From a virus, in the IMG/VR virus record IMGVR_UViG_3300037843_000757, positions 1 through 28,453 of that record: a DNA stretch of 28,453 nt; one strand, 5' to 3'. Position numbers and translations under genes: made by a program. A model generated the notes under the pieces. It was not told where the DNA came from and did no database searches. It saw nothing but the letters and a program-made list of their open reading frames with translations. Shown here piece by piece: positions 3 to 18,202 of this stretch; the stretch's first letter is position 1, and each line of letters begins with the position of its first letter.

Positions 3-1088
3 TTCGAGGCTGTGCATATCCCTGGGCTCACTACTGCGAGCTTCCCGTCGTCCTACCGGGGCCAGCGGTGTCCACCGCCGGCCGGGATGATTCAGGATTC
101 CGAGCTGCCTGTATCGGAGGAAGCAGCACGTGCCCACGAGCGCGAAGAAGAGTGCCTTTTCTTTGTGGCGGTCTCACGCGCCCGCACGCATCTGATTCTC
201 CACTATTACCGCCTTATCGGCGGTGGGAAGAACCGGACACCGTCTAGGTTCCTCTCCTGGTTCAATTCGGCGATTGTCGTTGAGGCCAAGAAGCCGGGAA
301 CCCTTTCCCTCCCCCCTGATGCGCCAAAGCCGAGGCCGATCATCGTTACCCGGCCAGCGAACTGGCATGTGACTGACAGCCAGCTTGCCGCTTACGAAAA
401 ATGCCCGCGGCGGTACTTCTACACCCACGTGCTGGGCCTCGGCGCGGCGCGTCAGGCGACAGCATTTTCGCGGACGCACGACTGCATTTACGAAGTAATC
501 GGCTGGTTGGCCCAGGCCAGGCGGGATGGCGATCCCAGTCGGGAGGCGGCCGAAGCGGCGTTCGATGCAATCTGGCAGGAGCGAGGTCCGGTCGACCACG
601 GGTTTGCCGCCGACTATCACCGGTTGGCATCGCGGCTTATCGGCGCTCTTGTGCGGGCCAGCGCGGGGCGGCGTTTCCGGGATGCCGAGCCGCTCGCGAT
701 TGACTTCCCTAATGGGCGGGTGGTGGTTGAGCCGAGCGAGATGACCGAACTGCCGGACGGATCTGTTGTCCTGCGACGAATCCGGACCGGGCAGAAGCGC
801 GATAAGGAGTACGATCGGCTTGACTACGCGCTCTACCATCTGGCGGGCCAGGCCCGATTTGGCAGACGCTATGCTGTCGAAGCTCTTCATCTGGTTGACG
901 AGCTGGTCGAAGTGGTCCCGATCACGTCGCACAAGTTGGCGAACCGGCAAATCAAGAGCGCGGAGCTACTCACCGCGCTGAACGCCGGTTGGTTCCCTAC
1001 CGAACTGGACCAGGTCACCTGCCCGCGCTGTCCCCACTTCTTTATCTGCGCCGCCACTGCCAAGGGGACGCTCACGCTTAGCTGCTGA
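3..1088 (+). CDS. UvrD/Rep-like helicase C-terminal part fused to a PD-(D/E)XK-type domain (5' truncated by window)
   Basis: The reading frame is open from base 3, so the gene starts upstream of the window. The first codons (FEAVHIPGL) match helicase motif V of superfamily 1A enzymes. Shortly after, EEECLFFVAVSRAR matches motif VI, with its arginines for ATP hydrolysis. From about base 357 the protein changes to a RecB/AddB/Cas4-like nuclease fold. It has one cysteine in CPRRYFY (codon at 402) and a C-terminal CPRCPHFFIC cluster (cysteine codons at 1020, 1029, 1047), the C-x(n)-CxxC-x5-C pattern of iron-sulfur nucleases. The usual nuclease core (D...E/D-x-K-T-G) reads RRIRTGQ here, so the acidic residue and lysine are missing and cutting activity is doubtful. 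The likely role is ATP-driven DNA unwinding in defence or repair. It lies 94 bp upstream of the ubiquitin-like operon on the same strand, so it may share its regulation. The helicase call is firm; the exact subfamily is not. Confidence 0.82.
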   Translation, partial: FEAVHIPGLTTASFPSSYRGQRCPPPAGMIQDSELPVSEEAARAHEREEECLFFVAVSRARTHLILHYYRLIGGGKNRTPSRFLSWFNSAIVVEAKKPGTLSLPPDAPKPRPIIVTRPANWHVTDSQLAAYEKCPRRYFYTHVLGLGAARQATAFSRTHDCIYEVIGWLAQARRDGDPSREAAEAAFDAIWQERGPVDHGFAADYHRLASRLIGALVRASAGRRFRDAEPLAIDFPNGRVVVEPSEMTELPDGSVVLRRIRTGQKRDKEYDRLDYALYHLAGQARFGRRYAVEALHLVDELVEVVPITSHKLANRQIKSAELLTALNAGWFPTELDQVTCPRCPHFFICAATAKGTLTLSC

Positions 1089-1182
1089 AAAAAGCGGCAA
1101 TCTCCTTTCCGGGTTTGCTCGTCTGCCGCGATCAAGTTGGTAGACGAGACAAGAACACCGAGAATCCTGAAAGGAGGATCCA

Positions 1183-1707
1183 ATGACGAAAAGCGTTGAC
1201 GTTTTCTACCAAGGCGAGGGCATTCGCGAAATCGAGCACATCGAGGTGGGCCCTCATCACAGCTTTTCTGACCTCAAAGCCCTTTTGGTCGAGAAGCACG
1301 GGATGGACACCGATGCGGAGGTGCTCATGTTCATCGAGGACCGAGACGAGCCCGTGGAGGGCGGCCTCTTGGTTCATGAGCACGCCGAGGCGTGCATCAT
1401 CAAGATCCACGTCCATCGCTGCCGGCACATCGAGGTCACGGTGACGTTCAACGGCGAATCGGTGGAACACCGCTTCGGTCCCGGGACCACCATTGCCCGC
1501 GTGAAGAAATGGGCGGCCGAGCACAAATTCGGCATGAGCCCCGAGGAGGCAAGCGAGCACATGCTTCAGATCGCCGGGAGCCACGACCGGCCGGCGCCAG
1601 GGACCCATCTCGGTTCGCTGGTGAGCCACGGGAAATGCCAGCTCGCCTTCGACCTTGTGCCGGATGAGCGGGTGAACGGACACAGCGACTTGGAGGTGGT
1701 CGAATGA
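1183..1707 (+). CDS. bilA: Double ubiquitin-like protein (BilA-like modifier)
   Basis: This 174-aa protein appears to be two tandem beta-grasp ubiquitin-like domains (about residues 3-78 and 80-160). Each starts with a beta-strand pair and a helix ([30 protein letters not shown]) and carries similar charged loops. Double-Ubl proteins followed by E2, JAMM and E1 genes define the ISG15-like Bil systems, in which the modifier is conjugated to phage proteins. There is no terminal GG. The last glycine is Gly166, followed by an eight-residue tail (HSDLEVVE), so removal of that tail by the JAMM protease is plausible but inferred. The ATG is preceded by a near-perfect Shine-Dalgarno (AAAGGAGG, 5-nt spacing), the strongest in this part of the window, as suits the most abundant component. 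The stop overlaps the next start as ATGA. The call rests on gene order and visible fold pattern. Confidence 0.8.
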
Positions 1708-2177
1708 CCGCACCCGACGAACGAGCGTTCCGCGCCGACGTGGCGAAGGCCGACTTCCACCTCGGCCAACTTGAGGGGCGATGGCGCCTGGTGGACATCA
1801 CCTGGCCCTTCGCCTTGATAGGGGTCAGCGCGAAAGACGGCCAGGAGTACATCCTTCGGTTCGAGTGCTCCGCCTATCCGCAATCGCTGCCGACCGCTGG
1901 CCCCTGGGACCCTGAGACGAACGCGATTCTCGCTTTCGACAGGTGGCCCAAGAGCCGCGGTGGCCGTATAGGTGCGGTGTTCAACAGCGGCTGGAAAGGG
2001 GGCACTGCCCTCTACCTGCCGTGCGATCGAGAAGCGTTTGCGGGGCATGACCACTGGCGCACGCAAATGCCATCGAAAATCTGGCGCCCGGCCGAAGGAA
2101 TTATCCAATACCTGGAATTAGTCCATGAGCTTCTCCATTCGAGAGATTATCTGCCGGCTGGTTGCGCCGTGGCATGA
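1704..2177 (+). CDS. bilB: E2-like ubiquitin-conjugating enzyme (BilB-like)
   Basis: This 157-aa protein has the order of elements of a small bacterial E2 fold: an N-terminal helix, the strand pair [13 protein letters not shown] and [15 protein letters not shown] (the latter recalling the E2 YPxxPP loop), and a catalytic segment TALYLPCDR. The only cysteine in that segment, Cys107, is the expected thioester residue; GHDHW follows closely, as in other bacterial E2s of JAMM/E1 operons. It would accept the BilA Ubl from the E1 and pass it to a target lysine, with no E3 visible nearby. Its ATG overlaps the bilA stop (ATGA), which implies translational coupling. Its own 3' end overlaps bilC by 53 nt. 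The fold is inferred from motifs, not from overall identity to eukaryotic E2s. Confidence 0.8.
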
Positions 2178-2643
2178 GCTTTCGGTCTCCTGGTTCACCT
2201 GGCGTCGGTTGCTGCGCGGGCTTCGGAGCCGCGGCCTAAATGGAAAACGCGAAAGCGGCGCGTTTCTCCTTGGCACCCGCCGCAAGACACGGGCACGGGT
2301 CGTTGACTTCATCCTTTACGATGACCTCGACCCGCGGTGCCTGGATTCGGGGATCGTGCATTTCGACGGCCGATACTTTGGGGCGCTCTGGGACATCTGC
2401 AAGGAGCGCGGGCTCGCTGTTATGGCCGATGTTCACACACACCCCGGCGGCCCAGGGCAAAGTGACTCAGACCGGGCTCACCCGATGATCGCCGCGGCCG
2501 GCCACATCGCTCTGATCATTCCGCGTTACGCGACCGCACCGGTGCCGCGCCGTGAGATTGGCATTTATCGTTATCGAGGTTCAAGGCGGTGGGACACGAT
2601 ACCGCCGCGCCGGCGACGGCGATTCCTTCACATTGGTCTATAG
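2125..2643 (+). CDS. bilC: JAB/JAMM metalloprotease (BilC-like deubiquitinase)
   Basis: The 172-aa protein shows the JAMM zinc-protease signature: the catalytic Glu43 in RESGAFLLG and [13 protein letters not shown] with His104, His106, Ser113 and Asp116. The spacing between the second His and Ser-x-x-Asp is six residues, one shorter than in the AMSH/RadC pattern. Such proteins remove ubiquitin-like proteins from targets or trim the precursor C-terminus, and in Bil operons this gene is the peptidase. The ATG at 2125 lies inside bilB. No ATG in this frame occurs after the bilB stop, and the ATGA at 2174 is in another frame and opens only a short ORF, so the long overlap seems real. A weak GGAA precedes the start. 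The arginine-rich C-terminus is unexplained. Confidence 0.83.
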
Positions 2644-2652
2644 GGAAGCAAC

Positions 2653-4023
2653 ATGGAGAATTATGGCCTTAGCGATTCGCTCCACCGACTCGTGAAGCAG
2701 GCGGTGGATAGCGGCGAAGCGTCGAGTATTGCCGAAGCAGAGGCGATGTTTCGCCGGTATACCCTGACGTTTGAAATCGGCAAAACCGAGGCCGGCGATC
2801 CCCTGCATCAAGGGGCGCTCTTGACGGGCGTCGCATTGGCACGGCGTGTGTTCTTGGGCGGCGTGGCCGTTACCGGGGCCGTTGAGAGTCTGCTACAGGT
2901 TCCCCTGCCCCTTGGGAAAACTCTTGCCGAGGCGGTCGCCGCGCTCGGCGGGGCGGTCGGCGGCGGGGAATCAGGTGGACCGGTGATCAGCATCGGCGGC
3001 GGACCGCGCCCCCGCACGCAAGGATTCCATGTGCGGACTGTCTCCGCCGGGTGGCGCGGCGGCATTGTTCCCGGGCATTCAGAGTTGTTCCCCTTGCCCG
3101 GCCCGGCGATGCCGCTAGCCGCTATGCTTTCGGCGGCGCTGGGAGTGAACGAAGCGTTCACCTATGTCGGCCGGCAAAGCGGCGCGGCGGGGCGACGCGC
3201 CGTTGGCCTGTCGCTCTGGCGGCCTGGGGCCGGCGCTAACTGGCTTGGGGATAACGCGGGGGAACCGGAACTCCAGTATCTCCCCTCAAAGCTGTGGTTG
3301 ATCGGACTGGGGCACCTCGGCCAGGGTTACCTCTGGGCACTTGGAATGCTCCCATACCGGCAAGATTTCGGCGTGTTGCTGGTACTGCAAGATGTCGATC
3401 TCGTTACCCCATCGACGGAAAGCACTGGCGTTCTTTGTGACCAAACGACGATCGGGCAATTGAAGACCCGCGTGATCGCAGCGTGGGCGGAGAAGCGAGG
3501 CTTTTCAACGAGGATATACGAGCGTCTCTTCGACGGCTCCTTCCAGCGGCATCCGGATGAACCAGCGGTAGCTCTCTGCGGAATCGATAATGGCCTTGGC
3601 CGGCGTGCCCTCGATCAAGTCGGCTTCGGCTTCGTCGTCGAGGCCGGGCTAGGCCACGGCTACCAGAACTTCCGCTCGATACGGCTGCACACGTTGCCCG
3701 GGTCGCGACCCGCAAGTGATCTCTGGAAGGGAACTGACCAAGATGCGGTCGAAGATGTCGCCGGCCGCGCTGCTTACCGGGACATGGTCGCCAAAGGCGA
3801 GTTGGATCGCTGCGGCGTTACTGTGCTGGCCGGCAAAGCCGTTGGCGCCCCCTTCGTCGGCGCGGTGGCCGCGTGTCTGGGGATCTCCGAGATCCTCCGG
3901 TTGCTCCACGGCGGCACGTTGCACAGCGTCGTTGAAATGGATCTGCAGGGTGTCGAGCATCGAGTGGCCGTCTCGCGCGATGGGTTAGATGGGTTCAACC
4001 CTGGGTATGTGCCGGCCGCCTGA
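2653..4023 (+). CDS. bilD: E1-like ubiquitin-activating enzyme (ThiF fold, BilD-like)
   Basis: This 456-aa protein has an N-terminal ~200-residue region, probably an inactive adenylation-like or accessory domain, followed by an active ThiF/E1 Rossmann domain. LIGLGHLGQG (Gly218, 220, 223, 225) is the nucleotide-binding glycine loop. LQDVDLV supplies the acidic residues after strand 2, GQLKTRV carries the conserved lysine, and CGIDNGLGRRAL resembles the Dxxx(R) element of the active site. Cys387 in DRCGVTVLAGKAVGAPF is the best candidate for the E1 thioester cysteine. The enzyme would adenylate the BilA C-terminus and transfer it to BilB. The start follows bilC by nine nt with GGGAAG upstream. 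The gene closes the operon and converges on the subtilase gene after 82 bp, with no clear terminator seen between them. Confidence 0.83.
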   Translation: MENYGLSDSLHRLVKQAVDSGEASSIAEAEAMFRRYTLTFEIGKTEAGDPLHQGALLTGVALARRVFLGGVAVTGAVESLLQVPLPLGKTLAEAVAALGGAVGGGESGGPVISIGGGPRPRTQGFHVRTVSAGWRGGIVPGHSELFPLPGPAMPLAAMLSAALGVNEAFTYVGRQSGAAGRRAVGLSLWRPGAGANWLGDNAGEPELQYLPSKLWLIGLGHLGQGYLWALGMLPYRQDFGVLLVLQDVDLVTPSTESTGVLCDQTTIGQLKTRVIAAWAEKRGFSTRIYERLFDGSFQRHPDEPAVALCGIDNGLGRRALDQVGFGFVVEAGLGHGYQNFRSIRLHTLPGSRPASDLWKGTDQDAVEDVAGRAAYRDMVAKGELDRCGVTVLAGKAVGAPFVGAVAACLGISEILRLLHGGTLHSVVEMDLQGVEHRVAVSRDGLDGFNPGYVPAA

Positions 4024-4105
4024 CGACTTGCGACCTCGATTGAGGGTGCGCTGCGAAAGCCATTTGTATTGAGCCAGGGCTCCAGCCGCCGGCATCGGTA
4101 GCTCT

Positions 4106-6397
4106 CTATGGCTGCAACCTTGCCCGCGACCGAATGCCGAGGTCCTGAGCACCCCAGTTGAGGCGATTCATTTCGCGAACGAGGGCGTCATAAACGCGGG
4201 CCTGCCCCGCAGGATCGCGGATCGTGATAACCAGGATGACTTCCTGGTCTTCCTCGGGCAGGAACTCGGCTCTATTGAGGACGTCAAGGGTGAGCCTCCA
4301 CTCCTTGTCCGCGGGTCCCCTCATGAAACGGCGGTAATAGAGTTTGAGCGGCGCCCACTTGAAACCGTGCTTGATCAACTCCTCCTCGTACCCCTCGCAC
4401 AGCTCCTTGGGATATGGCGGCACTTGTCGGTTGTAACTCTCCTTGCCGGTAGCTGGATCGATAACGACGGTGCCAAGCGAAGCGTTCACGTTGCAGCGGC
4501 AGTATTCCACCCCGTAGCCGCGGTCTAGCGGCGGGTCATAGAGCAACGTCATGAACACTTCGCAGTTCAGCTTGCCGGACTCTGAGAGGCAGGCCGGCAT
4601 CGGGAAGGGACGCTTCCCGAATTCTGGCCGGCTTCTTACGGGGGCTTGCAGAATCAGCGTGGCCGAAGACTGTCGGCAATTGATGATCTGCTCGACATTC
4701 GGAGGGGTCCCAAGTCCATCGTAGTTCAGCCGAGTGCGGTCGAAGGGGGCATTTTTCAAAAACGCGCCGTGTACCATCAAAGCCTTGACCAGGGTCGGTG
4801 AGGCCGAATCCGTGGTCGTACTCAGCTCGCGCTGGACGTCTGCGGCAATGGTCGAGACCAGGGGACAAGCGAAGCTTGTCCCGATGTTTTCGGCAATGTG
4901 GCCGCTTGCGTCGATCGATATGACTCCCGTCTGGACGTAATTACCATCCTCATCGCAGTTTCCGCCGCACTGCGACAATTCCGGCTTGATCAGGTAAGCG
5001 GGCCCGGGGCCACGGCGACTGAATGGGGACGGTTCATCCGTTCCAACGCGGGTATTGCTGTTTGCCAGGTGCGCTACCGATCCAACGGTGATGGCCCGTA
5101 CGGCATCTGCAGGTGGGCAAATGCGGTCGGCCTCGCCGAGGGCATCGGGATCTTCCGGGGGCCACGACCGGAGCGGAAGGTCTGGGTAGTTACCGGCAGC
5201 CACGACGAATAGCACGTTACGCTTCCGCGCTCGCTCGTCCAGGGCCGAGGCGAGCATGGAGAACTCCTGGTCCGTGCAAGGGTCGCCGAGCATGGCCAGA
5301 GAGAGGTTCCATACCTTGACGTAATCAAATCGGTTCAAGCCTTCGTCCAGGACGGTCAGGACGTCGTATTCGCTGATTTCCCCGTCCTTGTCGAACGCAA
5401 CGACGTCGACGATTCGCGAGGAAGAGGTCGGGAATCGAGGGTCGTTGTTGTTTAGCCGCTTGCCGTGAACAAGCAGGCCGGCAACGAAACTCCCGTGGTT
5501 ATTGTCCTGGCGATCCCGTGGTACAAAATCGAGCCGGTCAACGACCCAAGCCTGAAGATGGCGGTTGTCCGGGTCTGTCCCGCTGTCGAAAAGACCGACG
5601 ACGCCATACTCTCGGCGGGGTTCCGGTGGCGGGAAGCCGGTCGCCGAGACATTGGCGATGACTCGGGACGCTGTTCGAACGATGCGGTAATCGGGGAATA
5701 AAGAAAGGCTCTGCGTTCCGACGAATCGAACCAAAGGCTCGACCGCCTGCGTCCGGACGTTCCTCAGACAGTAGACGCTCAGGCCCTCGGCGTAGTCCAT
5801 CGGTTCGTAATCCTGAATGCCATATTCCTTCGCGATCTCTATGAAGGCATCGTCGATCGCCTTATTGACGCTAGGGGAGGGATGGCGGAAGAGGCGGAAC
5901 CGCAGGGCCGGGGCGTGTTTCTTCCGGCCCGCCTGCAGGGATTGAATCGGCTTCGATCCGAGAACATCTTCCGGGGCGTACGGGCGGATCCTCTCCACGG
6001 TTGAAAGGTGAGCTTCGAGCTTGCGTGAGTGCCCGGATTGAGCGCGTTGCGACAGCCTGTCCAGCCCCGTAGGTTGAACGCTTACGTACAGCTCGCCCAA
6101 TTTGTTGCTGCCAATGATGGGGCACGTATCGTCGTTGAACAGATCGTAGGGCCGGTAAGTCTTGGCCACGGCCTGCTGTCGCAGCTTTACCTTCGCGACG
6201 GCAGGAACGCCTTGATAGGACTCGAAAGCCGGTTCAAAGAAAGCCCGGATCTCCTCGACTTGGCGAACGAACTGACCGCGAAATGCGTCGGTTACTTCAA
6301 CGAAAGGTTCCCATTCTCCGCCCGTTCCGCCCGGGAGTTGGTAATCCCCTTGGCGCGGAAATACGACTTTGATCGGGAGGAGAATGTCCGATGGCAT
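4106..6397 (-). CDS. Subtilisin-like serine protease (S8) partner of an AAA+ ATPase
   Basis: The 763-aa protein carries a complete subtilase triad: Asp271 in GLFDSGTD, His301 in NNHGSFVAG and Ser508 in GTSFACP. The oxyanion Asn403 lies in FVVAAGN. An N-terminal ~260-residue domain and a C-terminal ~170-residue extension flank the catalytic domain. There is no signal peptide, so it is expected in the cytosol, unlike most secreted subtilases. The start lies three nt after the ATPase stop, so the two form one operon and are probably translationally coupled. AAA+/S8 pairs recur in bacterial defence islands; by inference the ATPase senses or controls and the protease executes. The N-terminal region could be a pro- or substrate-recognition domain. 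The protease call is very secure; the biological target is unknown. Confidence 0.9.
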   Translation of the reverse strand: MPSDILLPIKVVFPRQGDYQLPGGTGGEWEPFVEVTDAFRGQFVRQVEEIRAFFEPAFESYQGVPAVAKVKLRQQAVAKTYRPYDLFNDDTCPIIGSNKLGELYVSVQPTGLDRLSQRAQSGHSRKLEAHLSTVERIRPYAPEDVLGSKPIQSLQAGRKKHAPALRFRLFRHPSPSVNKAIDDAFIEIAKEYGIQDYEPMDYAEGLSVYCLRNVRTQAVEPLVRFVGTQSLSLFPDYRIVRTASRVIANVSATGFPPPEPRREYGVVGLFDSGTDPDNRHLQAWVVDRLDFVPRDRQDNNHGSFVAGLLVHGKRLNNNDPRFPTSSSRIVDVVAFDKDGEISEYDVLTVLDEGLNRFDYVKVWNLSLAMLGDPCTDQEFSMLASALDERARKRNVLFVVAAGNYPDLPLRSWPPEDPDALGEADRICPPADAVRAITVGSVAHLANSNTRVGTDEPSPFSRRGPGPAYLIKPELSQCGGNCDEDGNYVQTGVISIDASGHIAENIGTSFACPLVSTIAADVQRELSTTTDSASPTLVKALMVHGAFLKNAPFDRTRLNYDGLGTPPNVEQIINCRQSSATLILQAPVRSRPEFGKRPFPMPACLSESGKLNCEVFMTLLYDPPLDRGYGVEYCRCNVNASLGTVVIDPATGKESYNRQVPPYPKELCEGYEEELIKHGFKWAPLKLYYRRFMRGPADKEWRLTLDVLNRAEFLPEEDQEVILVITIRDPAGQARVYDALVREMNRLNWGAQDLGIRSRARLQP

Positions 6398-6400
6398 GGA

Positions 6401-7561
6401 TTACGGTTCCTTGAGCAGTTTGCAAACCTGCGGCTGTGAAATGCCGAAGACCTCGGCAAGACGGTTTTGCGTGAATAAACGAGAGTCGAAATCGCGGACC
6501 GCCCTCAGTCGTTCGCTCAGTGGTAGCTTCATGGTGGGAGCGGTCTTTGGATTGGCGGCCAATGCCGCATGAATCGCCTCTCGCAACGGGACTTCCGTCT
6601 TGCCGGAAAGAACAGCTTGACGGATACAATCATCCGCCAGTTCACGAAGCTGAGCGCCGGCAACTCCCTCGGTCAGTGCTGCAATAGCCCGGACGGTGTC
6701 TTCAACAGCGAAACCGTTGAAGAAATAATGGAGCATTTGCTGGCGAAGCTCTGCAGTAGGCTCAGTAAGCCTTATTCTGTAGGCAAATCGCCGCCAAATG
6801 GCGGGGTCAAGGAGGTGCTCGTGGTTGGTGGCGGCAATCAGGACGTGATCCGTCTCCATGGCGTCGATGTTTTGCAGGAGGCTGATTACGACCCGCTTCA
6901 GTTCGCCGAGTTCGTGCGAGTCGTCGCGCATCTTGGCGACGGCATCGAACTCATCCAGGAACAGCACGCAGGGCCGGGACATTGCATGATCGAAGAGTAG
7001 TCTAATGTTCTTCGCAGTGCTGCCAAGGTACGATGATATCAGGCCATCGGTTCGGGCGGTGATTAGAGGCAGCGACAACTCGGCCGCGATGAAGCGGGCT
7101 AGTTGAGTCTTGCCGCAGCCAGGAGGACCGAAGAGCAAAAGTGAGGCGCTGATACCAACGCCGTTCGCGATAAGGCGGTCTGCGGCCCTGTAGTACGTCA
7201 GAAACTTTTTGACGGTCCCCATGTCCCCCGGCGAGAGGAATATAGGCACCTCTCCAGACTGGAGGTGCGTTTCGTCTGCCATCGGTAAGCGCGACTCCGA
7301 ATCTACCGGCACTTGCGCCGCTGAGTTCGGTGCCGCTGTCCCGTTCGTTGACCGCGCCAGCGCCAGCTTCCCGACCTTACTCTTACCGAGAATTTGGCGA
7401 ATTCGCTTAGCACCTTCCAACTCTCCATCCGTCTCCAGCCGATCACTAAGCTGTTGGCAGTAAGACAGGACTTTGGCATGGTCGGCATTGGCGGCACCCT
7501 CGACGATCTTCGCAATGTCGAACAGGTACTTCCGCAGCTTTAGGGAATCGTTATCGCCCAT
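6401..7561 (-). CDS. AAA+ ATPase with C-terminal helix-turn-helix, partner of the subtilase
   Basis: This 386-aa protein has a classical AAA+ module: Walker A GPPGCGKT (residues 145-152), Walker B VLFLDEFD (199-206), sensor-1 Asn246 in AATNHEH and arginine fingers in WRRF (257-258). The C-terminal lid helices follow. The first ~100 residues are helical and variable. The last ~37 residues (RLFTQNRLAEVFGISQPQVCKLL) look like a helix-turn-helix, which is unusual for such ATPases and may bind DNA or serve autoregulation. The ATG at 7561 has no Shine-Dalgarno. The predicted transcription start from the upstream promoter falls only a few bases before it, so the message may be nearly leaderless. It forms an operon with the downstream subtilase. 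The ATPase assignment is secure; the HTH is my reading of the pattern. Confidence 0.88.
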   Translation of the reverse strand: MGDNDSLKLRKYLFDIAKIVEGAANADHAKVLSYCQQLSDRLETDGELEGAKRIRQILGKSKVGKLALARSTNGTAAPNSAAQVPVDSESRLPMADETHLQSGEVPIFLSPGDMGTVKKFLTYYRAADRLIANGVGISASLLLFGPPGCGKTQLARFIAAELSLPLITARTDGLISSYLGSTAKNIRLLFDHAMSRPCVLFLDEFDAVAKMRDDSHELGELKRVVISLLQNIDAMETDHVLIAATNHEHLLDPAIWRRFAYRIRLTEPTAELRQQMLHYFFNGFAVEDTVRAIAALTEGVAGAQLRELADDCIRQAVLSGKTEVPLREAIHAALAANPKTAPTMKLPLSERLRAVRDFDSRLFTQNRLAEVFGISQPQVCKLLKEP

Positions 7562-7882
7562 GATGGAATAATATACGCGAACAATGGAATAGTTTCAAGC
7601 TAGTCGTGAATAATCGGCATCGCAGTACCCAAACCTGAAGCTCTTCCCTTACTAAGAAGAACTTGGTGCGGAGGGCGGTGTTGCCGCAAGGTCTTTCGCG
7701 GCAGCGGTTTAGGTATCGCATCTTATCCCATTTGACGGCTGGGGACCCTAGCCCTCGGCTTTCGCAGCTACAGTTCCGACGCGGCGAGCCCCAAGACGGA
7801 CACACATCCCCGGCATCGCGCTGAGGGGCTACGGGCGGGCCACTTTCGACAGTGCCGGATGCCATGCACGAGTGCCAGGGCC
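7562..7882. other. Intergenic junction between defence block and phage block
   Basis: Apart from the promoter at its left end I see no supported gene in these 321 bases. It contains a short inverted repeat TGCCGC/GCGGCA near 7680-7705 with a 10-base loop, and GC-rich stretches without a clear tRNA cloverleaf. Because structural phage genes end at 7883 and cellular-type genes begin at 7561, an attachment site or recombination scar could lie here, but no repeated att core can be shown without the other phage end. Confidence 0.4.
7570..7598 (-). promoter_or_regulatory. Sigma-70-like promoter for the AAA+/S8 operon
   Basis: On the minus strand TTGAAA (7598-7593) and TATATT (7575-7570) are separated by exactly 17 nt. 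The expected start is about 7563, two or three bases before the ATG at 7561, so the mRNA would be almost leaderless, which agrees with the missing ribosome binding site. The surrounding sequence is locally AT-rich compared with the rest of the window. Confidence 0.6.
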
Positions 7883-8458
7883 CTACTGGTAGAACTGGTG
7901 CGAGGACATCCCTTGGCGATCAGCCTGGGACGTGAGCAGCTTGAAGACCTTGCAGTCGGCAAAATCCACCAGCTTGCAGCGGGTGACGTGGACGCCGAAT
8001 TGCCGCAACTCGCGGCGGGTCTCTCGTGTGAGCGTCTTCGTCAAGCTCTCATCCCTGATCCCTGCCATGATCTCGTCGTAGGTGTGCGTGGCAATCACGC
8101 GGACCACGGCGGATTGGGTCAGATCGTTGATCGTGGTGTCCACGTCCCAATTCAACTTACCGATGGCCCGCACGGGATCGGGAATCTTGTAGACCACCAG
8201 CGTCTTGACGACCACCTTCTTGCCATCCTTCGTGGCCATCACCTGGTCCGGGATGGCGAGGGTCTGCCGGGCCGTCACGATCACCTCGACTTCCGTAGTC
8301 AGCGGCCACCAGAGGTGCAAACCGGGGGCGAGCAGGCGGACGTGCTTGCCGCGTTTCCAGGCCACTCCGCCATGTGTTGCGCGGATGATGAGGATGTGCG
8401 GGATGAACTTATAAATCGTCTCGGCGAGTTGGCCGAGCCAGGCAAACGCGCTTTCCAT
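7883..8458 (-). CDS. SPFH / Band 7 domain protein
   Basis: The 191-aa protein follows the stomatin/prohibitin pattern: GGVAWKRGKHVRLLAPGLHLWWP at the domain start, TKDGKKVVVKTLVVYKIPDP in the middle, then a helix leading to RRELRQFGVHVTRCKLVDF at the domain end. The N-terminal 30 residues are moderately hydrophobic (YKFIPHILII) and may insert in or lie on a membrane. SPFH proteins form ring-like membrane scaffolds in cells, and some phages (for example actinophages) also encode Band-7-like proteins of unknown role. It is the last gene of the phage block and has a good ribosome binding site (AGGAG, about 7 nt before ATG). It is short compared with cellular family members, with no long C-terminal coiled coil. 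A role in infection, membrane protection or lysis control is speculation. Confidence 0.78.
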   Translation of the reverse strand: MESAFAWLGQLAETIYKFIPHILIIRATHGGVAWKRGKHVRLLAPGLHLWWPLTTEVEVIVTARQTLAIPDQVMATKDGKKVVVKTLVVYKIPDPVRAIGKLNWDVDTTINDLTQSAVVRVIATHTYDEIMAGIRDESLTKTLTRETRRELRQFGVHVTRCKLVDFADCKVFKLLTSQADRQGMSSHQFYQ

Positions 8459-8479
8459 AAGGTGCTCCTCTCAAGAAAC

Positions 8480-8515
8480 GCAAGTGCCCAGATGGTTCGC
8501 CACCTGGGCACTTGC
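8480..8515 (-). terminator. Strong hairpin between the 62-aa gene and the SPFH gene
   Basis: A perfect 12-bp inverted repeat (GCAAGTGCCCAG/CTGGGCACTTGC) extends inward through one A/C mismatch and three more pairs to a TTCG loop. In the minus-strand RNA the mismatch becomes a G-U wobble, so the stem is continuous (16 bp). Only a short GTTTCTT follows, then the SPFH ribosome binding site. It could be a weak terminator, an attenuator or an mRNA processing/stability element. Confidence 0.6.
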
Positions 8516-8539
8516 TCGAATCGCACTTGCCGCACTCGC

Positions 8540-8728
8540 CTATTTGGACCGCCCCTTGTGATGGAAGGTGGCCAGGGTCTTCGCCAGATTGATCTCCCGC
8601 CGGGTCGAAGTCGAAATGTTCTTCGGCGGGTGCGCCTCGAAGGCCGCCAGCGATTTGCCGGCCGCCTTCGCCTTCGCGGTCAATGCGCCGGGGTGCTTGA
8701 TCGCCCCGGCAATCCACTTCTTTGCCAT
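8540..8728 (-). CDS. Small basic phage protein (62 aa)
   Basis: This lysine-rich protein begins MAKKWIAGAIKHPGAL and ends in HHKGRSK. Small proteins with this KHPGAL(T)xKAKxAG opening recur in tailed phages, usually near structural genes, without a known function. The ribosome binding site GAGGAG lies about 8 nt before ATG. The strong positive charge would allow nucleic acid or capsid-lumen binding, but this is inference. The hairpin at 8480-8515 follows its stop codon. Confidence 0.65.
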   Translation of the reverse strand: MAKKWIAGAIKHPGALTAKAKAAGKSLAAFEAHPPKNISTSTRREINLAKTLATFHHKGRSK

Positions 8729-8753
8729 TGCACAGTCTCCTCAAGTTGCGTGT

Positions 8754-9566
8754 TTATGGACAAACCTTGGTAACGGACAAATCGTAGACGTAAGCATCCA
8801 TGTCGAACGCGCCGAGCCAAAACGTCTCGTAGTAGCGGCCGGCTGCATAGTCGTAGTAGTACCCCGTCCCTATCGGCTGATCGTAGTAGTTCGTCGATCC
8901 GGTCGTGGTGCCGCTGGCGTAACTCGGCGCAAGCTCTGGCACCCAGCCGGAGCCAACGACCGTGGTGTCCGTGTTGCTGCACGTATACGTGTACGTGTCG
9001 TTTCCGTTATAAGACCTTATACCACCCCCGACCCATTGGTCCTGATAGACGCAATTCGTCCAGTGGAGGTGCCGCTGGGTGTACTGGATGATCTGGCCCG
9101 TGGTCCCGCCGGCAGCGATGCACGCCGCAAGGGCCGTCACCAAGTCGGACCCCATTGCGGCGACCATATCGCTGTAGCTGACGTTCCCGTAGAGGTACTG
9201 CGTGAGGATTTGCGAATAGGGAATGGTCACGTTGTAGCCGCCGGGCATCGGGACCGTCCCGGTCTTGTTGGGCACGCAACACGCCTGCTGGCACTTGCAC
9301 CAGCCCTTCCCTATGGCCGTGTTAAGCTCGTCGATGATCGCCTGCTTCCAGATGCCCGTGGGCGCATTGAAGACATTGGCGGAGCAGATCGCGCTGAGCT
9401 TGTTCCTGGCCGCCGTAATGTCGGCCGCGCTCCACCTGTGCGGCGCGGTCACGAGCGGCAACGCGGCCAGGGCCGTGCAGCCGGCGGGCGGGTTCTTCGC
9501 CAGGTTGTTGATCCGCGTGAGCAGATCATTCCAGACCGCGCGCGTCAGTACGGAAGTGGCAGCCAT
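8754..9566 (-). CDS. Uncharacterised phage protein, cysteine- and tyrosine-rich (270 aa)
   Basis: I do not recognise a family. The N-terminal half is helical and carries a cysteine cluster GWCKCQQACC around residues 90-98. The C-terminal half is rich in Gly, Tyr, Thr and Asn with strand-like alternation (GTGYYYDYAAGRYYETFWLG), typical of an exposed beta-structured tail appendage. It lies three nt after the 103-aa gene and two genes after the tail hub candidate, so a tail-tip or fibre component is the best guess. Disulfide or metal binding by the cysteine cluster would be unusual for a protein assembled in the cytosol. Start chosen at ATG 9566, right behind the previous stop. Confidence 0.6.
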   Translation of the reverse strand: MAATSVLTRAVWNDLLTRINNLAKNPPAGCTALAALPLVTAPHRWSAADITAARNKLSAICSANVFNAPTGIWKQAIIDELNTAIGKGWCKCQQACCVPNKTGTVPMPGGYNVTIPYSQILTQYLYGNVSYSDMVAAMGSDLVTALAACIAAGGTTGQIIQYTQRHLHWTNCVYQDQWVGGGIRSYNGNDTYTYTCSNTDTTVVGSGWVPELAPSYASGTTTGSTNYYDQPIGTGYYYDYAAGRYYETFWLGAFDMDAYVYDLSVTKVCP

Positions 9567-9569
9567 GAC

Positions 9570-9881
9570 TCAACCCTGCAAGAACGCGGTTCCCGTGCCG
9601 AACTTCTGGCCCGTGGTGTCGTACTGGAAATCGAACGGGGCCTCATTCTTCCCGTCCGTGACAACCACTTGGGACGACAGTTCCACCGGCGTCTTCCCAG
9701 CGTCGTTCTTCTTGCCGCTGACTGCCAGCACGTCCGACAATTGCCCCGTGTTAGTTCCATCCGTCACTTGGGTCATCCGCAGATCAAGCACAAGCGTTTG
9801 AGCCAAGTCCACAAAGGGGATGTTGAGCGGAGGCGGCGGGGTGGTATAAGGGGTCTTCAGGTCGAGAACTGGTTTATCCAT
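9570..9881 (-). CDS. Small phage structural protein (103 aa)
   Basis: The protein begins MDKPVLDLKTPYTTPPPPLNIPF and then forms alternating strand segments (QTLVLDLRMTQVTDG; SSQVVVTDGKNEAPFDF). No family is recognised. Two in-frame ATGs are adjacent (9884 and 9881). The second is preferred because GGAG then lies six nt upstream and because it uses the TGATG coupling seen elsewhere in this cluster. Its start overlaps the end of the 779-aa tail hub gene by one base. A small tail-tip or collar accessory is likely by position. Confidence 0.6.
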   Translation of the reverse strand: MDKPVLDLKTPYTTPPPPLNIPFVDLAQTLVLDLRMTQVTDGTNTGQLSDVLAVSGKKNDAGKTPVELSSQVVVTDGKNEAPFDFQYDTTGQKFGTGTAFLQG

Positions 9882-12220
9882 CATTCGCTCCAAAAGAAGC
9901 CGCAATCCTCCATCGTGCCCGCCAGCACCGGAGTCAGGCAGGTGAAGTGGATGCAGTTGTTCGCCGAGTCATAACGCGCGGATTCAACGATGGCCAAGAC
10001 CGGCCCGTTGGACACATAAGGCTGCGCGAAATCGAGCGTAACAGCATCGAAGGTTTCCAGCTTGAGTTTGTGCAACGCCGTGGTAAACTTCACCCTCTTC
10101 CAGGAATTTGACTTGCGCATCAGCCAGAACCTAGCGCAGCTTTCCACGGTTGCACGATCATTGAAGATCGTAAAATTGTAGGTAGCCTCGTGCATCCCGT
10201 AGCGCTCCACATTGTTGCGCAACAGAAGCACGTAGCTGGGATGTTTTACCTCGGTAGTATTGTCGCCGGTAATCACGCGATTGCTGAACACCGGCGGGGT
10301 CCAGACCTTCTCATTGACTAACTCGATCTCCGGGACGGGCAATTCGCTCCAGTTGACCGTCATCTTCGTCACCAATTCCTCGGTCGTCGTTATCTCAACC
10401 TCGATTCCCGCGTCGGCATCGAGATCGCTCTCCGTAATCGTATCGACGGAGGGCGGTTTCGCGGGTAGATAGTTGATGTATACCACGCCGTTTACGATCC
10501 GCAGCGAGCAACACGCCTGGAACGCAATGTCCTGCAAGACTTGCAGCACGTTGCGACTGCTGTTAATCGCAAAGTTGGCCGGACTAGGTGCGGCACAGCT
10601 ACCAAAGCTGACCGGATCGCATGTCAGGTCGCTGAAGTTCGTAATGATGTACCGCAGGACATCGACTACGGACGGACCAACCGCTGATTGGAACGAGACA
10701 TAAAGCTCGTCGCTCCAGTGCTCGTTGGCAATCGTGCTCAACCGTTGCGGGAGCGTCACCGTGACGCCCGTGAACCTCCCGCACGCCATCGAACCGACCG
10801 TGTAATCCGTAACGTCCCGCAAAAGCTGGACGCCCGACACCGTACACAGGGCCTTCACCGCCGTCACCGTGCCGGGTACAAGGGAGACCCCATAGACCAA
10901 TGATGCGGCCCCGTAAATCTGCACACTGGCCCCGGCGTCAATCCACATCTGCTGTAAGATCGGCTGCGTGTTATCAAAGTTCTTGTTGCGCGTAATCGTG
11001 TAAGTGACCGGATCAGTCGTGTAAGACTTCAAGCCGCCGTTGCCATCCGGTATCTGGGCTGTCCAGGTCCAGGTGTCTGAAACCTTCCCGCCATCGACAC
11101 CGTATAACGTAACGATGGACACCGTTCCATCCAGATTTGGTTCGGTATAGACCACCGGCTTAGGGACGAGAGTGAGGCCGTTCGTGACCGTGTTAAGAAT
11201 ACCCTGCGCCACCTCCTCCAGATAGTCGCTTCGACGGCCGGAGATGGTCAACAGATTGCCTGCCATCGTCCCCTCAAAGACAGCCCCGGTGATATTTGCC
11301 GTCACAGCGCCTTGAGGAAAGTTCTCGCCCCCGAGTATCTGGACCGGGTTCGTACCGTAACCTTGCAGGCGTGCCTGGTCGATCTTTGCCTGGCGAAGGT
11401 TGCGCGTGAGTTGCTGCGACGCCTCCCACTCGATGATCCTGCGCTGAAGCTGAATGTTCAGGTCATGGTACTGCTTCTGATAGCCGGCGCGGAGCTTCAC
11501 GTATTGCGAGTTGTTCGGGTCGCAGTTGAACTTGTCAATGAGTGTCTGGATGAAAGCCAGTTGTGACTGCGCCTTGTAGTAACTGAGCAGAAAATCCAGG
11601 CCGGGATCATCCGGCGAGGCGATCATCAATTCCTCGCCGCCCAACACGCCTATGGGATCGAGCGTCGTGCCCGTAACGGGCGGCTGGATATTCACCGCCT
11701 TGTTATCGGATACGGTGCCGAAGATCAGCGGCCACGCCTGATTGGGAATGGTATTGGGGATTTCTCCCCCGAAGTTCTCATCCGTCGTGAACCCGCACTC
11801 TTGGTCTTCTAGCTGCGAAACAATCGTAATCTCGACCGTGCGGGCGCGCTCGCTCCAGGAAAGCGGGGTCATCAACACGCCGCTAAAGAGAAGAAACCTG
11901 TCCGAGAGCGCCAGGCCGGAGAAGTATTGATAGACGCGCGCCGGCCGCTTGTGAACGTCCTGGCTGTCGAGGATGGCTTTGATCGAGCCGTCCGTGTCGT
12001 CCAGCGTGACCGCCAGCGATTGCGAACCACTACTGCCGCTGAGGTTCACGGCGTCATCCAGTTCGCCGACCTCTACGATCCGGCCCGGAATGTCGCCGAG
12101 GGTGCGGTCGGCGTAGACGGCCGTGCTGCCGTCCACCCAGTCCACCTCGATGATGGTGATGGGTTCATTGCCATAGCGCGACGCCAGCTTTGCCAGTCCC
12201 GCTTCGGATATGTTTCTCAT
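9881..12220 (-). CDS. Putative tail hub / baseplate protein (779 aa)
   Basis: The large protein starts with a beta-rich ~120-residue domain (TIIEVDWVDGSTAVYADRTL; SLAVTLDDTDGSIKAILD) common to tail-tip proteins. A helical insert at about residues 205-300 is rich in Gln, Arg and Leu (coiled-coil-like). The later part (DVLRYIITNFSDLTCDP, then VLQVLQDIAFQACCSLRIVNG) resembles siphophage tail hub proteins of the gp27/Tal type. Position downstream of the tape measure and the size both fit. It would close the tail tube and hold fibres. The start overlaps the preceding 132-aa gene as ATGA. No peptidase or lysozyme motif was seen, so the hub probably does not itself cut peptidoglycan. Confidence 0.65.
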   Translation of the reverse strand: MRNISEAGLAKLASRYGNEPITIIEVDWVDGSTAVYADRTLGDIPGRIVEVGELDDAVNLSGSSGSQSLAVTLDDTDGSIKAILDSQDVHKRPARVYQYFSGLALSDRFLLFSGVLMTPLSWSERARTVEITIVSQLEDQECGFTTDENFGGEIPNTIPNQAWPLIFGTVSDNKAVNIQPPVTGTTLDPIGVLGGEELMIASPDDPGLDFLLSYYKAQSQLAFIQTLIDKFNCDPNNSQYVKLRAGYQKQYHDLNIQLQRRIIEWEASQQLTRNLRQAKIDQARLQGYGTNPVQILGGENFPQGAVTANITGAVFEGTMAGNLLTISGRRSDYLEEVAQGILNTVTNGLTLVPKPVVYTEPNLDGTVSIVTLYGVDGGKVSDTWTWTAQIPDGNGGLKSYTTDPVTYTITRNKNFDNTQPILQQMWIDAGASVQIYGAASLVYGVSLVPGTVTAVKALCTVSGVQLLRDVTDYTVGSMACGRFTGVTVTLPQRLSTIANEHWSDELYVSFQSAVGPSVVDVLRYIITNFSDLTCDPVSFGSCAAPSPANFAINSSRNVLQVLQDIAFQACCSLRIVNGVVYINYLPAKPPSVDTITESDLDADAGIEVEITTTEELVTKMTVNWSELPVPEIELVNEKVWTPPVFSNRVITGDNTTEVKHPSYVLLLRNNVERYGMHEATYNFTIFNDRATVESCARFWLMRKSNSWKRVKFTTALHKLKLETFDAVTLDFAQPYVSNGPVLAIVESARYDSANNCIHFTCLTPVLAGTMEDCGFFWSE

Positions 12221-12615
12221 TGCTGGACCCCCTCGAACTCCAGGTCGATCATCTGCAATTCACCGCGCGGCAGCGGCGGGATCGCCGGTCCCGCCGCCTC
12301 GGGCGTGTCGAACTCGAATGGATTGTTCGTGAAGTTGCCGACCCACACACGGCCGTTGTGGTCCGTGACCTTCACCAGCGAGGCGAAATAGGCGTAGAGG
12401 AAGGCCCGTAGCTCCAGCCCCTTGTTGCGCATCACGCGAAACGTCCACTTCATCTTGCGGCGGCCACCCTTCTGCTTGACGTAGGTGTAGCGCGTGCCGT
12501 CCATCGCCGTCTTGCGGGTCACTGTCGCCGTCAGGCCCTCCTGGTCGCTAAGCTGCGGGTTGGGCAGCAGCGTCGTGGTCTGCAAAAGCGGATACGGGGC
12601 GGCAAGCGTGAACAT
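12217..12615 (-). CDS. Tail protein, homologue of the C-terminus of the 847-aa repeat protein (132 aa)
   Basis: The 132-aa product (MFTLAAPYPLLQTTTLLPNPQ...) aligns by eye with the last ~110 residues of the upstream 847-aa protein. Both have an N-terminal strand pair, a TRK/VRET element, a helix (LRAFLYAYFAS versus LLAFLETHLGE), DxxGRxWxG and a final DLEFEG/SLEFEG. Two ATGs are possible (12621, 12615); the second is chosen because GGAG then lies six nt upstream. The frame is the same as that of the 847-aa gene and is open up to its TAG stop at 12658. It is probably a small ring or distal-tail component. The family name is not known to me. Confidence 0.65.
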   Translation of the reverse strand: MFTLAAPYPLLQTTTLLPNPQLSDQEGLTATVTRKTAMDGTRYTYVKQKGGRRKMKWTFRVMRNKGLELRAFLYAYFASLVKVTDHNGRVWVGNFTNNPFEFDTPEAAGPAIPPLPRGELQMIDLEFEGVQQ

Positions 12616-12631
12616 GGGCATCTCCTCGCCA

Positions 12632-12675
12632 GGCACCAAGTCGGCACCAAGTCGGCACTAAGCCGGCACCAACTC
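12632..12675. repeat. Four 11-bp tandem repeats at the end of the 847-aa gene
   Basis: Four units of GGCACCAAGTC (32-42, 43-53 perfect; 54-64 and 65-75 with two and one changes, counted from 12600). The TAG stop of the 847-aa gene lies inside the third unit. An 11-bp period is not a multiple of three, so unit gain or loss would change the frame between the two homologous tail genes. Confidence 0.8.
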
Positions 12676-15201
12676 GCCCTCGAACTCCAGGCTCGCCGAA
12701 TAGCTGTCGCGGGCATCCTGGACCACCGGATTGGTCGGCGTCATAATGACGCCCTGCCAGCATCGGCCTTCCCAGTCGAGCAGGCCGATTTCCTCGCCCA
12801 GGTGCGTCTCCAGGAAGGCGAGCAACTGCTGCGACTGAGTGGAACTGAGGCCCGAGAAGCTGAGCACGAGGGTTTCGAGCTTCGGCCAAATCGGGTCGGC
12901 GAACACGATCAGTGTTCCGCCACGGGTCTCCCGCACGATGCGGTTGAAGCTGAAGCGGTCTTTGTTGCCGAGGTTCGGCGCTCGCAGCGTCACCGAGTCG
13001 GTCACGGTGCCCGTCGCCGGGAAGAACAACTGGAAGGGAAGCTCGCTGGGCGCGGGCGTCCCGACCGTCACGGCGGGAGGCGTTGGCGATCCCTCTGCCC
13101 CGGTGCCGACGAAGGGGTGGTACTGCTGGCGGATACCGGAAAGGACGATGCTATAGCTGACCGCCTGATCGAGGACGAGCACCGAGGCCGCCCCACGCGG
13201 GCCGCTATGGGCCGCCGTCGCCTGGCTGGCGAGCGTCAGGGTGGATTGCGTGGTCTTGCACGCATCGACCGTGGCGGCCTGCGCCAGCGAGAGCCAGTTG
13301 CCGGTGTCCCCGGTCGGGCTGGGGTGGACCTCGCCCAGCAGTTCCAGAACGCTTTCGGCCGACAGGCTGATGGCGGTCGGCTTCACCCGCACCACAGAGG
13401 CCGACTGCACCAGCGGAATCGGCTGCCGGACGGCCGCCGCCAGCGGCCGGGCCGCGCTCGCCGAGTCTTGCAGGCCCTCATACGTCGGGTAGAAGGTGTC
13501 GGTCTGCTGATCGTAGCCATAACTGGCGGTCTGGATCGGCGTCTGGGCGTCCAAGTACCAGGGCCGCGCGGTCTGCTCCGTCTGGGCCAGGGCAAGGGCG
13601 CTCTGGGCCGACAGCGACCGCACCACCACTACGTCCGCCTCATCCCAAAGATCGTCCAGCGCGCTGGCGGCAGCAAAGATCGCATTACGGTCGGCCGTCT
13701 GTGCCAGGGTGAGCGCGCTGGCCGCCGAGACGCCCCGCACGACTGAGACACTGGCCGCCGATCCCAGGGACATTGGGGAGGTGGCGGCGCTGGTCGCCGC
13801 CTTCTGGGCCGCAGCCACGGCCGCCAGGGTAAGCAGGCTGGCGGCCGTCAGCGGCCGATCAGCCGTGGTGGACGCCGCCGTAGCTGGGTTGATGGCCGAT
13901 TGGACCGTGAGCGTCCGCAGCGCGGTCTCGGCGGCAACGTCCGCCAAATGGAGCGGACTGCTCGGACCCACGTTGAGCGTGGTGCAAAGGCCCAGGGCGG
14001 AGCCGAGGTTGATCGCGGACTCTGCCGCAACCGTCCAGACGACACGGCTCGTGCGGACGGCCTCGTCCGTCAGATCGAGCGTGCTGGCAGCCGTCACCGC
14101 CCGCACGGCCGAAGCGTCGGCCGCCGTCGCCGGTCCAATCGCCGAGGAGGCAGCGACCGCAATCGAGGCCGTGCGGGCGGCCCCGTCCGTCAGGTCCAGC
14201 GCGTCGGCCGCCGCCAACGTCCGCACGGCCGCCGTGTCGGCCGCCGTCGTCAAGCTGGCTGCTGAGGCGGCAGCGGCCACGAAGACCGCCGCAACGGTGA
14301 CGGCATCCGTCAGATCGAGCGCATGGGCTGCCGCGACATTCCGCACCGCCCCTGCCGCCGCAGTTTCGGTCAGGGCCAAGGCACTTGTGGCGCTTTCGCC
14401 GCGCACGCAGCCAATGCCGGCCGCGCCTGTCAAGGCCAGCGTACTGGTGGCGGCGGGGGCACGCACGATGGCCGCCAAGGCCGCACTGCTCGACACCGCC
14501 AAAACGCTCGCGGCGGTCACGTAAGTGATGGTTGCCCCGCCGCCTCCCTCTTGCTGGCCCAGGGCCAGCCGCATCCCGGCCAGGAGCGAAGTCGGCGTGC
14601 CGAGCTTGCCCGTCCGGGTGCCGGTCGCCGGCTGCGGCGAGGCTGCGCCGGCATAGGCCAACTGCTCGCCACCCAGGTAAGCGTCCTGGCCGCCGAGAAC
14701 CCACCGGGGGGACGCATGGGCCGCGAAGGTCGGCGCGGGAACGGCCGTCTGGGCAATCGCCAGCACGCTCGCGGCCCGGAGGTTGCTGACCAACGGGCCG
14801 GCTACGCCGCCGAGGGCCAGCACGGTACTGCCCAGTTGGCCGCCGAGCCGGCCGCCCTGGCTGGTAAACGTGGGCCAAGGGGTGGCCGCGCCTGTGAACG
14901 CTAGCTCTGTCGCACCCAACTCGGCGTCTTGACCGCCCAAGACCCAATGCGGCGAAGGGTGGGCCGCAAAAGCCGGCGCGGGGGCCGCCGCCTGGGCAAG
15001 CGTCAGCGCGCTCGCGGCCGAGAGATTACTGACCAATGGGCCAGCCACGCCGCTAAGGGCCAGGACCGAACTGCCTAGTTGGCCGCCGAGCCGGCCGCCC
15101 TGCGTGGTGAGCGCAGGCGGCGCGGCGGCCGCGCCGGCGAACGCCAATTGCACGTTCGCCAACAGAGAGTCAGGGGTGCCTGGCTGGCTGGTCTGCGCCA
15201 T
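12658..15201 (-). CDS. Large repetitive tail/fibre-like protein (847 aa)
   Basis: Three zones can be seen. Residues 34-195 hold two 81-residue repeats (QGGRLGGQLGS..., GPLVSNL..., WVLGGQDA...). Residues 230-531 hold about 15 repeats of ~20 residues with the pattern A-x-S-x-L-x-L-x-x-x-A-x-x-x-x-V-R, rich in Ala, Ser, Thr and Leu. The last ~120 residues form a compact domain like the downstream 132-aa protein. Such an arrangement suits an elongated fibre or beta-solenoid fixed to the tail by its C-terminus. The gene lies between the candidate receptor-binding proteins and the tail hub. It follows the previous stop by three nt with GAGG upstream. No enzymatic motif was found. Long reading frames on the opposite strand here are by-products of the high GC content. 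Confidence 0.7.
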   Translation of the reverse strand: MAQTSQPGTPDSLLANVQLAFAGAAAAPPALTTQGGRLGGQLGSSVLALSGVAGPLVSNLSAASALTLAQAAAPAPAFAAHPSPHWVLGGQDAELGATELAFTGAATPWPTFTSQGGRLGGQLGSTVLALGGVAGPLVSNLRAASVLAIAQTAVPAPTFAAHASPRWVLGGQDAYLGGEQLAYAGAASPQPATGTRTGKLGTPTSLLAGMRLALGQQEGGGGATITYVTAASVLAVSSSAALAAIVRAPAATSTLALTGAAGIGCVRGESATSALALTETAAAGAVRNVAAAHALDLTDAVTVAAVFVAAAASAASLTTAADTAAVRTLAAADALDLTDGAARTASIAVAASSAIGPATAADASAVRAVTAASTLDLTDEAVRTSRVVWTVAAESAINLGSALGLCTTLNVGPSSPLHLADVAAETALRTLTVQSAINPATAASTTADRPLTAASLLTLAAVAAAQKAATSAATSPMSLGSAASVSVVRGVSAASALTLAQTADRNAIFAAASALDDLWDEADVVVVRSLSAQSALALAQTEQTARPWYLDAQTPIQTASYGYDQQTDTFYPTYEGLQDSASAARPLAAAVRQPIPLVQSASVVRVKPTAISLSAESVLELLGEVHPSPTGDTGNWLSLAQAATVDACKTTQSTLTLASQATAAHSGPRGAASVLVLDQAVSYSIVLSGIRQQYHPFVGTGAEGSPTPPAVTVGTPAPSELPFQLFFPATGTVTDSVTLRAPNLGNKDRFSFNRIVRETRGGTLIVFADPIWPKLETLVLSFSGLSSTQSQQLLAFLETHLGEEIGLLDWEGRCWQGVIMTPTNPVVQDARDSYSASLEFEGELVPA
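13609..14514. repeat. About 15 degenerate 60-bp (20-aa) coding repeats
   Basis: These encode residues 230-531 of the 847-aa protein. Units such as ATSALALTETAAAGAVRNVA and AADALDLTDGAARTASIAVA share hydrophobic positions but differ in sequence; a few are 18, 21 or 22 residues. Divergence suggests old amplification rather than recent slippage. Confidence 0.75.
14617..15102. repeat. Two 243-bp (81-aa) tandem coding repeats
   Basis: Unit 1 (15102-14860) and unit 2 (14859-14617) encode nearly matching 81-residue blocks of the 847-aa protein, sharing QGGRLGGQLGS, VAGPLVSNL and WVLGGQDA. A shortened third copy (RTGKLGT...) and a partial copy before unit 1 (SLLANVQLAFAGAA) flank them. Confidence 0.75.
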
Positions 15202-15204
15202 CGC

Positions 15205-18169: not shown

Positions 18170-18202
18170 CGTGGTTCCTCACGGAGAAAGAGGGGAAAGA
18201 AA

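Follow-up and report, generated by a model that had tools for sequence, protein, structure and literature searches.

The Bil operon

The window, a 28,453-base IMG/VR virus fragment, carries four genes at positions 1183–4023 of the plus strand, in the order bilA-bilB-bilC-bilD known from Bil systems and in one operon. bilA (1183–1707, 174 residues) encodes a tandem ubiquitin-like (Ubl) modifier, bilB (1704–2177, 157 residues) an E2-like conjugating enzyme, bilC (2125–2643, 172 residues) a JAMM deconjugase, and bilD (2653–4023, 456 residues) an E1-like activating enzyme. bilA and bilB overlap by 4 nt, and bilB and bilC overlap out of frame by 53 nt, an arrangement that is also seen in relatives. 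All four proteins cover the PADLOC Bil profiles approximately from end to end (BilA, 1.3e-60; BilB, 2.7e-60; BilC, 2.8e-65; BilD, 1.6e-163), ruling out chance matches. BilB also matches Pfam DUF7665 (5.4e-68), and BilC matches the solved BilC structure 8tyx (2.6e-9); neither phmmer nor profile searches of the PDB returned a match for BilB or BilD. On the basis of sequence, the locus is a canonical Bil operon and a further member of a known family. The initial annotation had read a Bil-type operon of Ubl, E2, JAMM, and E1 genes at this place and had proposed a profile search of the four proteins, and the search (1e-60 to 1e-163) bears that reading out.

The catalytic residues are conserved as well. 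Residues E43, H104, H106, and D116 of BilC, together with S113, are invariant in 10 sequences. C387 of BilD is invariant in 11 sequences, as are G218, G220, and G223 of the glycine loop (residues 218–224) and D247 and D249. Residue C107 of BilB is a cysteine in all aligned relatives except L006, which has a leucine. The JAMM tetrad, the E1 glycine loop and cysteine, and the E2 cysteine picked out in the initial annotation are thus those that the families conserve. The AF2 model of BilA (pLDDT 93.9) contains two beta-grasp domains, and its Foldseek matches include linear di-ubiquitin (2e-10) and ISG15 (about 3e-8), so the assignment of BilA as a double Ubl, which had been staked on the presence of two such folds, holds.

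Residue G166 of BilA is invariant in 63 sequences. Most BilA relatives end at this glycine, whereas BilA of the window continues for eight residues (HSDLEVVE). Given this tail, BilA is expected to be a precursor that BilC trims to G166. Other Bil systems conjugate the Ubl to phage structural proteins (summarised in PMC12948488 and PMC11354881), and by analogy with them the Bil system of the window may conjugate BilA to such proteins. The operon is like Bil as described in gene order, in its four full-length families, in the tandem Ubl with a conserved glycine, and in the E2 cysteine, JAMM residues, and E1 cysteine; it differs in the tail of BilA and in being carried on a phage contig.

Directly upstream of bilA, and open at the start of the contig, the plus strand encodes the C-terminal 361 residues of an ImmA/IrrE-UvrD-PD-(D/E)XK protein (HEL; 3–1088). 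This gene, a promoter-like element (1104–1135), and an IetAS pair (4106–7561) are absent from the initial annotation.

IetAS and a probable phage cargo slot

The two genes that follow bilD lie on the minus strand. IetS (4106–6397), a subtilisin-like protease, matches its PADLOC profile over the full length (3.2e-241) and NCBIfam NF042956 at 3.4e-199, below the curated cutoff of 900 bits. IetA (6401–7561), an AAA ATPase, matches its PADLOC profile at 6.9e-130. The two genes are adjacent and full length and constitute a second defence system between Bil and the tail module. Nothing notable distinguishes them from known IetAS, which is a neighbour and not part of Bil.

The remainder of the window is phage DNA, with genes on the minus strand. 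An SPFH/Band-7 gene (7883–8458; Band_7, 5e-19) is followed by late genes (8754–28321) that encode a protein of 270 residues without assigned function, tail proteins, three fibre-like paralogues, a tape measure, and a P22-like coat. Matches of the late genes include PhageMin_Tail (7.7e-20), P22_CoatProtein (3.5e-29), and PHROG tail fibre families, and their DNA is collinear in viral contigs. As for the phage group, the 779-residue tail protein has no relatives among sequenced phage records. The window contains no tRNA and no Rfam element.

The SPFH gene is 65–95% identical in 20 viral contigs in which the tail genes are collinear. In nearly all of these relatives homology ends at 7877–7889 (in the short L152, at 8091), and the SPFH stop codon, 7883, marks the limit of phage homology. 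In most relatives with enough sequence, the SPFH gene is followed by variable genes and then by early phage genes (an exonuclease, an 888-residue protein, a ParB-like protein, and a methyltransferase, all named by eye). In one relative, L135 (91.8% identical), the SPFH gene and the early genes are separated by a short stretch only. In the sister contig G760 (locus L137), the same position holds a 25-kb BREX/R-M cargo with phage genes on both sides; it comprises Vsr, a cytosine methyltransferase, BrxA, and BrxB, and, by reading, BrxC-, PglZ-, and BrxL-like proteins. L136 has a duplicated SPFH 3′ end that might have been an att repeat; this reading was dropped, as the copies are only 77% identical and no such copy exists in the window, L137, or L135.

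The phage edge at 7883, together with the BREX/R-M cargo of the sister phage in the same slot, argues that Bil and IetAS are probably phage cargo; most likely, the slot is filled with HEL-Bil-IetAS in the window and with BREX/R-M in G760. The phage flank lies to the right of the Bil block on the contig, the far (left) flank is off the contig, and phage genes on that side are seen only in G760; in addition, the window is an IMG/VR fragment, and IMG/VR contigs can be chimeric. The initial annotation had suggested that the Bil operon and the phage tail module might meet in one cell. That suggestion points the right way and is understated, since the edge at the SPFH stop and the other cargo that sister phages have in this slot make it most likely that Bil, IetAS, and the tail genes belong to one phage genome.

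The strongest competing explanation is that Bil and IetAS are chromosomal defence genes of the host beside an integrated prophage that ends at the SPFH gene. HEL-Bil is found mostly in bacterial genome contigs and plasmids, Bil occurs in only one other viral contig, and the left side of the window contig has no integrase or early phage gene, all of which fit this explanation. However, early phage genes close the G760 cargo on its far side, many relatives normally have the SPFH gene linked to early genes across an interval of variable content, and Bil is also borne by a prophage of another, unrelated phage type (L092). We therefore consider a host origin rather unlikely, and treat Bil and IetAS as probable cargo of the phage.

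Variable phage slots filled with defence genes are familiar, defence cargo in phages and satellites being the topic of a review (PMC8791490). In comparison with that cargo, what differs here is that a whole BREX system and, probably, Bil share one slot between the SPFH gene and the early genes.

The upstream module X260-Y215-HEL

We collected Bil loci by BilD similarity only, from plasmids, genomes, and one viral record, and scanned them with iterated profiles. Scans of viral and genome contigs with single BilD sequences found nothing; profile scans did. The counts that follow are out of 70 loci, those that contain BilA and extend for 5.5 kb or more upstream. HEL lies directly before bilA in 63 of the 70, and two further genes, X260 and Y215, are present in 67 each. 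The order X260-Y215-HEL-bilA is kept on one strand, with a spacing between HEL and bilA of mostly 65–210 bp. Pairwise distances of BilA, HEL, X260, and Y215 correlate (r 0.92–0.94, 64 loci), indicating that the module moves as a unit.

X260 of the relatives matches Sigma70_r4_2 (3.9e-7), and its profile matches structures of ECF sigma factors (6in7, 4e-10; 1or7, over residues 62–254). By homology to sigma regions 2 and 4, X260 is identified as an ECF-like sigma factor. Y215 is predicted to be helical and has weak HTH-like matches only, with no PDB profile match and no significant structural match in Foldseek. Because of the latter, the label anti-sigma for Y215 is a guess.

HEL consists of an ImmA/IrrE peptidase domain, a UvrD helicase with intact Walker A and DEYQD motifs, and a PD-(D/E)XK domain. 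Residues H82, E83, and H86 of the HExxH motif are invariant in 42 relatives; this N-terminal part lies off the window contig. In its helicase part, HEL is similar to helicase defence proteins, GajB among them. The nuclease-like domain of the relatives keeps its cysteines, but the catalytic D...(D/E)xK is replaced by RRVRTG or similar, and the window reads RRIRTG at this position; an active PD-(D/E)XK nuclease motif is thus absent from the HEL C-terminus both in the relatives and in the window. The fragment in the window matches PDDEXK_1 (9.8e-11), UvrD_C (0.0016), and the HEL HMM (5e-129), and is 62% identical to the C-terminus of a 1144-residue gene directly upstream of bilA on the Rhizobium plasmid pRL11. 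In Burkholderia-type loci, X260-Y215 occurs without HEL, indicating that HEL is not indispensable.

The window contig begins inside HEL, and X260 and Y215 are not on it; by the order in the relatives, they would sit just to the left. The initial annotation had called the operon complete with four genes. This is correct for the Bil core as described, whereas the unit conserved in relatives has seven genes and two matched promoters, and the window holds only the end of its third gene, HEL. Compared with the Bil descriptions in the available portions of the literature searched, the window adds the adjacent HEL C-terminus and a sigma-type promoter.

A promoter motif before bilA and X260

The gap between HEL and bilA contains a promoter-like element, CCTTTCCGGGTTTGCTCGTCTGCCGCGATCAA, at 1104–1135 on the plus strand, with a −35-like TTTCCGG and a −10-like CGATCA. 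It belongs to a 32-bp motif with the consensus CcTTTCCGGTTT-N13-CGATTAA, which we propose as the target of X260. The motif was learned solely from 77 bilA gaps (HEL-bilA) and then applied to other sites. Control windows are clean, a first control that overlapped true sites having been discarded. The element of the window scores 30.9 bits, about twice the control maximum of 14.7 (99.9% threshold, 14.1), a score that is not independent, since its own gap is among the 77 training sequences.

Upstream of X260, the motif exceeds the 99% control level in 59 of 68 loci and the 99.9% level in 51 of 68. It is found before HEL in 1 of 65 loci and before Y215 in none of 68. The two promoters of a locus also resemble each other. 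Within loci, the identity of the −10 elements is 0.857, versus 0.618 for shuffled partners (0/2000; 30 non-redundant loci), and that of the spacers is 0.41 versus 0.31. The similarity between promoter pairs of related loci comes partly from shared descent, which does not explain their specific placement. From its motif in 59 of 68 loci, X260 is predicted to be autoregulated through a cognate candidate promoter, and sigma control of the Bil operon is strongly suggested. Leader RNA is moderately structured overall (mean z −1.6); that of the window is not (z −0.6).

The module before other conjugation operons

The module also occurs outside Bil loci. HEL profiles match UvrD paralogues in nearly every genome, and only full-length matches were counted. 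In a sample of one class (385 genomes), five genomes have a full-length HEL match, and these are also the five with a strong Y215 match; BilD lies directly behind the module in three, and a multi-ubiquitin operon in two (G273 and G072). Among 369 genomes of a second class, Y215 is found in two, one with a Bil locus (G003, locus L057) and the other G725, in which the triad is followed by Multi_ubiq-like (compare L128), E1-like, and DUF6527-like proteins, recognised by similarity to L128. The multi-ubiquitin operons (type 6 of Iyer 2006) in G273, G072, and G725 share the preceding X260-Y215-HEL triad with Bil, but have Multi_ubiq repeats, DUF6791-ThiF or Prok-E2_E/JAB-ThiF, and DUF6527 instead of bilABCD.

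It could be argued that X260-Y215-HEL works on its own, in defence or stress, and travels beside Bil without controlling it. The triad is indeed also found without Bil, the HEL helicase part resembles GajB-type defence helicases, and the viral contig L162 carries a diverged Y215-HEL pair followed directly by phage baseplate genes, not by a Ubl operon. However, a Ubl-conjugation operon follows the triad (or X260-Y215) in 7/7 genomes found in the two class samples, order and strand are conserved with a gap of mostly 65–210 bp, and a common promoter, matching within each locus, precedes both X260 and bilA. Mere co-travel is therefore improbable, even more so than a host origin of the operon, and we favour control of Bil by the module. 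In diverged Bil loci that lack the triad (L019, L092, L130, and L131), other ImmA/IrrE proteins are encoded nearby, mostly with XRE-type domains.

Proposed mechanism and implications

We regard it as likely that the locus is a canonical Bil operon that a tailed phage carries, along with IetAS, as cargo in a slot of variable content, and that is under a dedicated sigma-factor switch. E1-like and Ubl folds are common to sulfur carriers, but a non-conjugating sulfur-transfer pathway of the ThiS/MoaD type has almost no chance of being correct, as the tandem Ubl, the E2 and E1 with conserved cysteines, and the JAMM protein all match Bil profiles and no rhodanese or sulfur gene is present among the window proteins scanned.

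CapP is an ImmA/IrrE-family protease, and HEL contains a domain of the same family. In the available portion of PMC13373217, CapH+CapP, CapW, and CapK+CapS are DNA-damage-type switches upstream of immune operons, as the module would be here, and five Bil operons with CapK+CapS are reported. What sets the Bil module described here apart from these switches is its sigma factor, the pairing of its promoters, and the fusion of its protease to a UvrD helicase; that portion of PMC13373217 contains no mention of such a sigma/protease-helicase module.

By analogy with CapH/CapP (PMC13373217), roles can be suggested for Y215 and HEL. X260 would be kept inactive, perhaps by its helical partner Y215, which may be an anti-sigma factor and protease substrate. 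HEL would sense aberrant (phage) DNA, and its metallopeptidase would cleave Y215. The freed sigma factor would then fire the two matched promoters, that of its own operon and that of bilABCD. BilC would trim the BilA precursor to G166, BilD would activate BilA via C387, and BilB would pass BilA on, via C107, to its presumed targets, the structural proteins of an invading phage; BilC could reverse the mark. The cargo would in this way serve the phage against competitors. Tentatively, and with rather less confidence, the scheme may be widened: Bil and multi-ubiquitin immunity would have a dedicated switch in which an ImmA/IrrE-helicase, on sensing phage DNA, cuts a partner and so frees a sigma factor, and phages would have captured this switch together with its Bil operon, in the slot that holds BREX in sister phages, for use against the tails of competitors, their own being spared.

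The conserved genetic unit and the probable carriage by a phage go beyond the published Bil descriptions that we searched; within this literature, a description of how Bil is turned on exists only for the handful of operons that have CapK+CapS. With its paired, readable promoters, the sigma factor makes control of Bil directly testable, and the promoter motif can be used to search for other conjugation operons under sigma control. That one phage probably has Bil and IetAS in the slot where its sister has BREX suggests that phages act as carriers of large defence systems. Bil is known to cripple the assembly of phage tails, and for a phage that carries Bil the question is how its own tails are spared. 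As a whole, given the module that almost always precedes it in relatives, the Bil operon resembles a weapon that can be induced through a switch of its own.

Genes associated with Bil and its upstream triad in relatives

The sigma factor–Y215–HEL triad (X260, ECF-like; Y215, helical; HEL, ImmA/IrrE-UvrD-degenerate PD-(D/E)XK) is followed by multi-ubiquitin conjugation operons in place of Bil at three loci (L128 1430-8650; L129 1475-9088; L134 3169-10450, reverse strand). The late operon for a contractile tail on one viral contig ends in a diverged Y215–HEL pair (L162 266-4316), which is not followed directly by a Ubl operon. A Paraburkholderia locus (L080) has X260–Y215 without an adjacent HEL; upstream of its bilA are three promoter-like TTGCC(G/T)GTTT repeats (7943-8560). 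The 5'-UTR between the promoter and bilA forms stable hairpins in L045, L068, L070, L082, and L003, and in the L070-type leader, CTCCTT near the expected transcript start pairs with the Shine-Dalgarno sequence AAGGAG.

A prophage of Neoroseomonas marina carries a Bil operon (L092 8536-11368) with the tape measure gene on one side and the tail tube gene on the other; an XRE-ImmA/IrrE protein is encoded upstream of the operon (7095-8414, reverse strand). BilB of a Sphingorhabdus plasmid (L006 4037-4495) has leucine at the position of the expected catalytic cysteine.

Further genes of the window and of sister phages

In the window, tail genes lie on either side of a GIY-YIG/NUMOD3 homing endonuclease (24867-25487, reverse strand). 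The cargo slot of a sister phage (L137, IMGVR_UViG_3300041955_000615, 1039-11035; L160 1-16282) holds ~25 kb of defence genes between SPFH and the early genes, encoding Vsr, a cytosine methyltransferase, BrxA, BrxB, and BrxC-, PglZ-, and BrxL-like proteins. The cargo gap of another sister-phage contig (L136 10803-12711) contains a second copy of the SPFH 3' end (77% identical) and a prepilin-like gene, assigned by eye to the planctomycete DUF1559 type, which hints at a planctomycete host.
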